From the NCBI RefSeq assembly GCF_001909285.1, contig NZ_MRSV01000001.1:411058-449716 (forward strand): a DNA stretch of 38,659 nt. The letters are read 5' to 3'. Position numbers and translations under genes: made by a program. Under the pieces are notes generated by a model, which worked only from the letters and a program-made list of their open reading frames with translations, was not told the origin of the DNA and did no database searches. The stretch comes from Exiguobacterium profundum (GTDB lineage Bacteria > Bacillota > Bacilli > Exiguobacteriales > Exiguobacteriaceae). How positions within the stretch are numbered: the first letter of the stretch is position 1; every line of letters begins with the position of its first letter. Of the stretch, positions 1 through 1,882 are shown one piece after another.

Positions 1-1173
1 TTTTATGAAAATTTAGTATTTTCTCAAATTTGGGGAGTAAACAACTCTAATGTGCTCAACAACCTACTTGGTGCAATATATATGGATAAAAAAAAAGGAT
101 GGACCTTACTAAATAGAGGTACAGTTATTGGTAATTTGAAATTTAAAATAGAAGATTTTATAGAAGGGCTTTCTGATAGAGACTTAACAAAAAAAAAAAT
201 AGAGTTAGAAAGTATTAACTTAGAATTAAAAAAGTATACTCAAATACTTAATATTATTGAATACAAAAGTCATTTGTCTGAAGAAAGCTCAAACTCTATA
301 TTTTCTTCAGATTACACAGTGAATTTAGAAAACAAGTTAAATTTTTTAGCAATTAAAAAATCAGAATAAAAAAGTAAAATTAATGATTTAGAAGAAAGTT
401 TGAACGAAAATAGCAAATTCATCGAATATGTTGAAAAAATGAACCTGATAGTTAAAGATAATGAAACTGGGCTAGAAATCCCAGTAAAAAAAGATAACAT
501 CATTCATTTTTCTGAAAACCAAAGATATATTGAAACTCGACTATTAATGCTGAAAAATGATTTTTCTAAAGTTAATAAAGAAATAAAAGAGTTAGAATTA
601 GAAATAAAAAAATCAAGCAACTTATTTTCACTTCAAAGTGAAATAAAAAAAGTTGATTATTTGATTTCTAAAGTTAATATACCTTTCGAACATTTGGAAA
701 AAACTATATCTTCTTTAAAAAAACAAAAGAAATTATTAAATGCTGAAATCAAAAAAAAAATTTCTGCTAACAACACTGTATTAAATAACTTGCATTCAAA
801 TATTTTAAAATACGCCGACCTTCTGAACGTTGGTCAGTATATAAATCAAAAGAAAGATTATATTTTTACTTCAGATTTAAAGTCATTAAGTGGAGCTGTA
901 CTACATAAAATTGTTTTCTCCTTCAAAATGGCTTATATTACTGAGTTACAAAATTATTTAGGTTACAAAGTTCCAATAGTATTAGATTCGCCAAGCGGTA
1001 GGGAACTTGATAAAGTTAATATTGAAGAAACTCTTCAGATATTAAAAAGTGATTTTAGTGAAAATCAAATAATCATTGCTTCAATTCATGAATTCGAGAT
1101 GTTTGAATCAGATGAAAAATTGGAGCTTATAAATAGAATATTTGAAGATGAAAAAACTTTTAATATTATTTAG
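1..1173 (+). pseudogene. 3' part of a coiled-coil SMC/Rad50-like ATPase, interrupted by an in-frame stop
   Basis: The frame is open from the first base, so the gene begins outside the window. It runs to TAA at 367-369 and continues in the same frame to a second stop at 1171-1173. The whole is rich in Lys, Glu, Asn and Ile and predicted coiled coil. The C-terminal part carries an ABC-type half: a signature-like LSGA near 895, a Walker B/D-loop-like VLDSPSGRELD near 981-1013 and an H-loop-like IIIASIHEF near 1072-1098. This is the layout of SMC/Rad50/RecN-type ATPases, often partners in phage-defence systems. No good ribosome binding site precedes the TTG at 400, so a nonsense mutation in one gene is more likely than two genes. 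Codon use and GC content differ sharply from the rest of the window. The exact family and any partner genes lie outside what I can see. Confidence 0.6.
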
Positions 1174-1206
1174 TCATTTCTATAATTTGCAACCCCATAA
1201 CGCATT

Positions 1207-1245
1207 AAAAAGACTACAGACATTATTTTCATCTGTAGTCTTTTT
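1207..1245. terminator. Bidirectional intrinsic terminator after the ATPase fragment
   Basis: A perfect 14-bp stem (1207-1220 with 1232-1245) with an 11-base loop begins with five A and ends with five T, so it could stop transcription from either side. It lies 34 bases after the ATPase stop. The remaining spacer up to rlmH (1246-1402) is AT-rich and shows no gene. Confidence 0.85.
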
Positions 1246-1402
1246 GATTTTCATAAATAAAAATATATAGTTTGAATTGAGAAAACATGAAAGATATATC
1301 TAAAAATTTATTAAGATCTCTCGAGTTTACAATATTTAATTAATATAGTAGGACACCAAATTCACTTAAAATTTGATATTGTTAAAGATTTTTTTACTTT
1401 AT

Positions 1403-1417
1403 TTATTTATGATACGG
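1403..1417 (-). other. SCC-type attachment site in the 3' end of rlmH (candidate)
   Basis: Read on the minus strand, the end of rlmH contains TATCATAAATAA (1403-1414), the coding sequence for Tyr-His-Lys-stop. The same bases form the core of the attB site used by staphylococcal SCC cassettes, which insert just after rlmH (orfX). Here the base composition changes abruptly at this point, from about half GC in rlmH to strongly AT-rich DNA. The core itself is fixed by protein conservation, so only the composition change and the foreign-looking gene beyond it argue for a used att site. No second copy is visible in the window. Confidence 0.45.
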
Positions 1418-1882
1418 TTCATTCCGATTGATTCGATACGCCCGATAAATCTGTTCACACAACACGAGTTTCATGAGTTGGTGGGGGAATGTCATCTTCG
1501 AGAACGAAATCGTATCATCGGCTCGCTTCATCACATCGTCCGACAAACCGAGCGATCCTCCGATGACGAAGGCGATTTTACTCTTTCCATACGTCGCGAG
1601 TTGATCGAGTTCACGGGCGAACTCTTCGCTCGTCCGCTGCTTTCCTTGAATCGCCAACGCGATGACGTGCGTATCTGGGGATATCTTCGCCAAAATCCGC
1701 TCGCCTTCCTTTTGTTTTACTAGTAACATATCTGCCTCACTCAAATGCTCGGGTGCTTTTTCGTCTGAGTTCTCGATTTCCTGCACTTTTGCGTAGGCAG
1801 ACAGCCGCTTTGTATACTCGGCAATTCCTTGTTTTAAATATTTTTCTTTCATTTTTCCGACCGTGATAATTGAAATATTCAT
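1403..1882 (-). CDS. rlmH: 23S rRNA pseudouridine(1915) N3-methyltransferase RlmH
   Basis: At 159 residues this is the usual size of RlmH (YbeA/OrfX family), which methylates pseudouridine 1915 in helix 69 of 23S rRNA in assembled 70S ribosomes using S-adenosylmethionine. The SPOUT-fold signature is clear: the [10 protein letters not shown] loop near residues 109-118 and the invariant C-terminal tail [13 protein letters not shown] that completes the active site. The ATG is preceded by AAAGGAAG at good spacing. It lies downstream of the wal-htrA block, as in other Bacillales. Three DnaA boxes sit in and next to the spacer upstream. Its 3' end abuts AT-rich DNA of a different composition. Confidence 0.97.

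Follow-up and report, generated by a model that had tools for sequence, protein, structure and literature searches.

Background

SCC-like islands at rlmH have already been published outside Staphylococcus, namely in Enterococcus (PMC6222049), and other Bacillota have been described as carrying SCC-like elements at the same gene (PMC10061031). SCCmecC2865 from S. sciuri, as far as its report describes it, contains none of the described ccr genes, but it does encode a phage-related large serine recombinase (LSR; PMC8407400). For serine integrases in general, the attP sites have been described as possessing a two-fold arrangement around a central dinucleotide (PMC3783163). The name Exiguobacterium has 0 occurrences in the main text of PMC10061031, and where PMC8407400 mentions this genus a plasmid gene is concerned.

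The window analyzed here is a stretch of 38,659 nucleotides from the 2.9-Mb genome of Exiguobacterium profundum (G000:C1:411058-449716; other genomes and loci are referred to by G and L numbers). An original prediction, made from the letters of the window alone, placed the edge of an SCC-like mobile island at its left end. The results presented below indicate that the window very probably begins inside an SCC-like cassette devoid of ccr that a Ccr-type LSR inserted at the rlmH 3' end.

A cassette between two copies of the rlmH end

The host gene rlmH (1403..1882, minus strand; Pfam SPOUT_MTase PF02590, 3.3e-59) bears the element at its 3' end, and the GC content shifts at its stop codon, from 0.241 (1-700) and 0.243 (701-1400) to 0.429 (1401-2100) and 0.523 (2101-2800), with values of 0.44-0.54 in most bins of the window after 2800. 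The predicted AT-rich edge at rlmH is thus confirmed, both in its magnitude (GC of 24% in the first 1.4 kb against 43-52% beyond the stop codon) and in its exact position; the low-GC DNA extends to the left of the window to about C1:406000. The proximity to the origin of replication, which had also been claimed, agrees with the GC skew, whose sign switches at about 28-31 kb of the window.

The motif from which the attachment core was originally recognized, TATCATAAATAA, occurs once in the genome, in rlmH itself, where it specifies the conserved Tyr-His-Lys-stop with which RlmH ends. Since these are conserved C-terminal codons, the motif alone is uninformative and was rejected as evidence of a mobile element; the claim holds as regards the site that is used, not as regards the motif. 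The real evidence is a longer second copy of the rlmH 3' end, the far-side repeat that had been anticipated, located left of the window at C1:409424-409441 (L002:17425-17442) and identical in 17 of 18 bases to the near copy GAACCGTATCATAAATAA, which comprises the last rlmH codons (1403..1420, i.e. C1:412460-412477, minus strand). It was found in a scan for GARCCKTAYCATAARTRA with up to 4 mismatches, and replaced an adjacent shorter repeat, TTATGATA at C1:409374, that had been noted first. A relaxed scan for att sites left of rlmH returned only the far copy and a core with one mismatch at +3081.

The two copies delimit a cassette of 3036 bp as assembled, including the overlap at an assembly gap (C1:409441-412476; 1..1419 within the window; GC 24%). 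This 3.04-kb segment contains solely the genes M46A and M46B described in the next section, and under the overlap filter no other frames of at least 80 aa were found in it. It exhibits the rlmH 3' site, direct repeats on both sides and inverted repeats at the internal boundaries that characterize SCC; a ccr gene complex is absent. In the entire genome PF07508 has 0 matches and PF00239 a single one, a 224-aa frame at C1:1692097, hence by these profiles there is no LSR either in the cassette or in the genome, and no ccr relic was detected inside the cassette. The ccr serine recombinases expected by the original prediction have therefore not materialized, and instead of a full SCC we are dealing with a ccr-less cassette of 3 kb; what does stand is that an SCC-like element, bounded by two copies, has integrated at the 3' end of rlmH outside Staphylococcus.

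It could be argued that no mobile element is involved and that the segment is native intergenic DNA, rich in AT, in which a repeat has arisen by chance, given that the motif consists of conserved codons terminating rlmH and that chance matches become more frequent in AT-rich DNA. This explanation is hardly credible: 300 first-order Markov simulations put the expectation for the 18-base pattern, with at most one mismatch allowed, at 0.003 matches per 6.5 kb, and second copies in a larger set of loci (see below) number 21 against 0 in the strand and side controls. Moreover, the genes of the cassette have no homologue downstream of rlmH in the stretches obtained from 18 congeners (about 19-20 kb long, except in G006 with 7.0 kb and G018 with 2.8 kb), so the same AT-rich genes, whose presence in related lineages would have spoken for a native region, were not seen there. 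Comparison with relatives lacking the insert gave this absence of the cassette genes, but not an empty site, which was found in none of 30 post-rlmH sequences (the collection comprises one genome per species).

A perfect 13-bp inverted repeat with a loop of 12 (AAAAGACTACAGA and TCTGTAGTCTTTT, 1207..1244), read directly from the sequence, is likely to act as a terminator between M46B and rlmH. The hairpin scan did not report it; a loop of 12 exceeds the limit of the scanner.

The PDC-M46 gene pair and the DNA to the left

From left to right the order is DUF4230, PDDEXK_4 and Mrr (all on the minus strand), the far site, M46A, M46B, the near site and rlmH. PDC-M46A (L002:17679-18716, plus strand) was identified by its PADLOC profile with an E-value of 7.1e-101. 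PDC-M46B (L002:18713 to window position 1173, plus strand) matches PADLOC profile PDLC04663 in three pieces, which when searched separately score 2.4e-34, 3.2e-41 and 1.9e-92: a 5' piece left of a scaffold join (L002:18713-19057), a middle piece (1..369, corresponding to profile positions 101-217) that ends at an in-frame TAA (367-369), and a C-terminal piece (370..1173), which was aligned with 4 homologues and also matches the LmuB profile PDLC03860 (1.7e-14). The scaffold join at C1:411057, one base left of the window, consists of one N with about 54 bp repeated on both sides and is an unmerged contig overlap inside M46B. Adjacent M46A and M46B constitute the PADLOC phage-defence candidate PDC-M46, in keeping with the defence cargo that had been suspected. 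Likewise, the coiled-coil ATPase gene noticed in the window proves to be of the SMC/ABC type, except that it is interrupted as assembled by the TAA and the scaffold join; because of this stop codon and the gap, the pair may be inactive in this genome.

The C-terminal piece of M46B possesses an ABC signature region, SDLKSLSGAVLHK, and a Walker B motif with DSP in place of DEP. All five aligned sequences, inspected by eye, exhibit Walker A (NSxGKST), the ABC signature and a Walker B serine replacing the catalytic glutamate. In M46A the motif GW[DE]FQ...[ED]DIE...QxKSQ is kept in 4 aligned sequences and, as read by eye, would correspond to a nuclease of the PD-(D/E)XK type. Only M46A profiles match the protein: there is no match to LmuA profiles at E<=0.5 or to PDB sequences at E<=5, and plasmids and phages yield one match each (30.5% over 53% of the query and 26.9% over 94%). 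Among 398 Bacilli genomes there are 4 other strong M46B loci (E<1e-100), with no rlmH in the 4.4-kb or wider loci and no att pattern in the 4.4-kb loci; two att matches with 2 mismatches in the wider loci (one each in L157 and L159) were taken as chance.

Immediately outside the far copy, where the flank reads TAACATGAAATTCAGACGG, a gene for an Mrr type IV restriction enzyme and one for a PDDEXK_4 nuclease adjoin the cassette (L002:15192-17289). Homologues of these two genes were found in none of the stretches fetched from 18 congeners, and the outer edge of the module shows no att remnant (homology with G016 restarts at about +5416).

Ends of the element and symmetry of attP

The far end of the cassette reads AAACCTCATTTTGATTCGATAAGGA up to the boundary and GAACC after it. 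Over 46 bp this terminus shares 91% identity with the one of the complete element in G012 described below, and over 40-52 bp it shares 80-90% identity with those of G026, L095 (Bacillus sp. RO2), G003 and L108 (Neobacillus jeddahensis), four cassettes whose cargo is other than M46AB; it shows 3 mismatches in 26 positions, as compared to at least 7 in each of 200 shuffles. The hexamer TACGGN precedes 14 of 27 far copies (20 with at most one mismatch, the remaining 7 departing by more than one base) and none of 85 rlmH copies. The two rlmH copies, the shared terminus and the lack of an LSR together identify the segment as a ccr-less SCC-like cassette, which has either decayed or moved in trans.

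The attP site was reconstructed from the left half at the far end and the right half at the near end. In the window's element the right half (AACCGTATCATAAATAAATAAAGTAA, 1394..1419, minus strand) forms with the far-end half a dyad of 14/26 positions (z=3.1); the far terminus is strong and the near-end arm degenerate. Over 21 elements the dyad averages 14.1/26 at a centre between G and A of GARCC, against 5.3-8.0/26 in ten shifted registers (shifts 1-5) and 4.6 for the reconstructed attB at the same centre. These 21 were taken from the 27 far copies by the author's choice, which dropped the inner copies of G003 and L098, the distal one of L122, G006 and G012b; four of the 21 lack a clear dyad (z below 2; G007 7, L095 9, L097 8 and L119 6 of 26). 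The outer arms of attP pair better within elements than between them (7.62 versus 6.37 of 12; 4 of 5000 permutations reach the observed value, in a test that treats the elements as independent and leaves relatedness uncorrected), while the inner part scores equally within and between elements (6.48 and 6.48).

Since the symmetry of attP is about one point, we infer that crossover takes place at GA, positions 1420-1419 of the window. The putative reaction would involve a Ccr-type LSR pairing attB, in the last rlmH codons, with an attP of about 52 bp that possesses dyad symmetry; crossover at the GA of GAACC would insert the 3.04-kb cassette, restoring the rlmH end on one side and leaving the second copy on the other. 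Having no recombinase of its own, the cassette would presumably be mobile only when Ccr is supplied in trans.

Second copies in other genomes

A first scan covered 19 genomes, taking in about 20 kb that comprised rlmH, its surroundings and the DNA downstream of it (in G006 7.0 kb and in G018 2.8 kb), and revealed second copies with at most 2 mismatches in the window's genome (G000), G003 (two), G006, G007 and G011; the second copy of G018 was found on another contig. The exact pattern GARSCNTAYCAYAARTRA matches more than once in 8 of 38 Exiguobacteriaceae genomes (G000, G003, G006, G011, G012, G018, G026 and G031), and its reversed control once in all 38 taken together; in G016, where rlmH ends in TAG, the exact pattern has 0 matches. 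With G007 added, 9 genomes possess a second copy, G006 being doubtful. The PF07508 recombinase is present in two of the 38 genomes, G012 and G014, and among the nine in G012 only, which leaves 8 of 9 without it (7 of 8 if G006 is omitted). The G006 copy itself (L038, about +3521 from the rlmH end) looks like a duplicated 3' part of rlmH.

The control set consisted of 80 named rlmH loci with up to 10 kb on each side, of which the 17 nearest by rlmH are from Exiguobacterium. A second copy was defined as the locus's own 18-mer with at most 2 mismatches or the synonymous pattern. Such copies number 21 and are distributed over 17 loci. Every one of them lies downstream of rlmH on its coding strand, with 0 downstream on the other strand or upstream on either strand (746 kb, 783 kb). 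More than one second copy is present in G003, L098 and L122. LSR-like genes occur in the fetched flanks of 6 of the 80 loci (L072, L076, L081, L103, L109 and L115), always downstream of rlmH, and L076 combines an LSR with a second copy. Flanks of 10 kb favour short elements, hence element sizes and ccr frequencies derived from this set are biased. The two sets overlap, in that L050, L051, L059 and L065 are the same genomes as G003, G011, G006 and G031.

A complete element in G012 and empty sites

In G012, after extension of the sequence, 20.1 kb separate two rlmH-end copies (far copy at +20092). The LSR encoded there (PF00239+PF07508+PF13408) has CcrB as its best NCBIfam model (NF047343, 3.3e-116, 389 bits versus a cut-off of 900), and the helicase (DUF927+HTH_56 by Pfam; PDB 5dgk, 2.7e-25) has Cch1 (NF047345, 3.3e-39, 135 bits versus a cut-off of 700). 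Both scores lie below the equivalog cut-offs, and we regard the proteins as probable homologues, CcrB-like and Cch-like. The cargo includes a 778-aa protein with a weak match to PDC-M54A (1.3e-8) and no Pfam match, a type ISP restriction enzyme and RadC, as well as a transposase and cadA/cadC-like genes (the last two named by eye). The site with two copies has its empty counterpart in relatives: the sequence past the far copy directly follows rlmH in G004 (98.5% over 400 bp) and G008 (85% over 403 bp). Ten far flanks were tested for an empty site, and the result was clear for G012 and for G007, whose 1.15-kb cassette corresponds to an empty site in G015, G014 and G017 (79-84%); G006 and L064 gave partial matches only, and for G000, G003 (both), G011, G026 and G031 no other genome matched from the start of the flank.

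The rlmH genes of G012 and G004 are only 88.9% identical despite their nearly identical post-element flanks, which suggests that homologous exchange may have occurred at this locus. Such exchange between rlmH flanks, or a tyrosine-type integrase, could in principle have inserted the window's cassette as well; neither the cassette nor the genome contains an LSR that would prove the serine route. We consider this improbable, because a dyad centred on one dinucleotide and co-varying arms fit a serine integrase, and because the LSR-like genes found in 6 of the 80 loci all lie downstream of rlmH; insertion by a Ccr-type LSR remains the preferred reading.

G012 harbours in addition an SCC-like piece away from rlmH (L161, G012:C4:1898000-1917900). 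It comprises an att copy of the element type, a ccr-like recombinase in truncated form, and genes for restriction-modification and helicases; transposase genes (the latter named by eye) are located close to its two ends, which gives the impression that insertion sequences have relocated it.

Cargo and origin of the ccr-less cassettes

Cargo of the defence type is frequent, though not universal, in rlmH cassettes, according to a scan of a minority of the 68 listed frames. The cassette of L050 (E. algae) encodes a SIR2 protein (PDC-S65, 2.9e-189), that of L051 (Exiguobacterium sp. J17977) a 483-aa protein without assignment, and the 3.46-kb cassette of L069 (Bacillus ectoiniformans) a single Roco protein of 929 aa with the LRR-Roc-COR arrangement (L069:10896-13682). 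Panacea-domain proteins are present in G026 and G018 and a methyltransferase in G031; a transporter in G007, a sugar-uptake operon in L092 and others were assigned by eye. G016 has a Gabija pair, GajA and GajB, just downstream of rlmH (L024:2839-6313), with no recognizable second att.

Two origins come into question for the window's cassette, an internally deleted SCC-like element being somewhat more likely than a non-autonomous one. According to the former, to which we attach about an even chance, the cassette is the remnant of a complete element (a pseudo-SCC) from which cch, ccr and the rest have been deleted, and it is no longer a mobile unit. Scraps of ccr survive in two other ccr-less cassettes and favour decay for those two: in G003, a 252-bp stretch matches, at 79% identity, DNA that overlaps the LSR gene of G012 at its 3' end, and L122 retains a fragment of an LSR that shares 74% identity over 81 aa with the LSR of L109. 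The lack of an LSR in the window's genome, the stop codon in M46B and the location of all 4 other strong M46B loci away from an rlmH point the same way. On the other hand, both termini of the cassette persist, no ccr relic was detected in it, and among Exiguobacteriaceae genomes with a second copy those without PF07508 are in excess.

A non-autonomous origin, which is possible but less probable, would make the cassette an operon equipped with attP, inserted and excised in trans by the Ccr of visiting elements, so that rlmH gathers operons successively. It accounts for the occurrence, in several species, of one or two genes of unrelated kinds enclosed by similar termini (M46AB, the SIR2 of L050, the Panacea protein of G026), for the multiple second copies in three loci and for outer attP arms that behave as matched pairs, and Ccrs encoded elsewhere in the genome are reported still to act on SCCmec (PMC8407400). 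However, no identical cassette was encountered in two hosts, the sole shared cargo, the transporter gene of G006 and G007, being no closer (87% DNA identity) than the host rlmH genes (91%), and two cassettes contain ccr relics.

We also put forward, as a rather doubtful generalization, that rlmH in Exiguobacterium and related Bacilli could be a capture site for single-operon, recombinase-less cassettes with a dyad attP, many of them for defence, which the Ccr enzymes of passing SCC-like elements would insert and remove in trans and which could stack in tandem, much like an integron built on serine recombinases. The findings described here open to experiment the questions of how cargo is acquired and lost by SCC-type elements and whether Ccr works in trans. 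The rlmH-end repeats also provide a simple signature for finding candidate defence operons.

Comparison with known systems

As to the cargo, M46AB is most likely a Lamassu-like abortive-infection module, in which the ATPase would sense foreign DNA structures and free the nuclease. The matches of M46B to LmuB profiles (1.7e-14 and 4.1e-8) are much weaker than that to its own profile, and the protein shares with Lamassu, as described in PMC10586767, the replaced Walker B glutamate and a nuclease-like partner; one case from the B. cereus group has been called both PDC-M46 and Lamassu (PMC11811056). The differences are that M46 has two genes and no LmuC (some Lamassu systems are also described without it; PMC10586767), that M46A matches no LmuA profile at E<=0.5, that M46B has DSP whereas LmuB is described with a Glu-to-Gln change (PMC10586767), and that the three sequenced M46B pieces contain no cysteine and hence no zinc hook, unlike Lamassu.

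As to the element, it resembles SCC in its insertion at the rlmH 3' end, in direct repeats of the rlmH end (attR GAAGCATATCATAAATGA in SCCmecC2865) and in terminal inverted repeats (PMC8407400); it differs in its size of 3 kb, its single gene pair, the lack of an LSR and cch, and its host. The islands described in PMC10061031 share the rlmH site, a second end traced by the last ~12 bp of rlmH, tandem composites, conflict-gene cargo and, in the complete form, an LSR plus helicase as in G012, but the elements followed there bear a primase, whereas most of those found here in Exiguobacteriaceae are without an LSR. The Enterococcus cassette chromosome (ECC) likewise uses the rlmH 3' site, with att repeats, LSRs in the complete form and variable cargo, but it has two recombinases, ccrAB, and demonstrated transfer (PMC6222049). 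SCC-style insertion of DNA is shown here in Exiguobacterium, mostly in a short form without recombinase, and what is added to the published record is this host, the very short form, its excess over ccr-bearing elements in the family, and an attP with co-varying arms, which indicates where crossover would occur.
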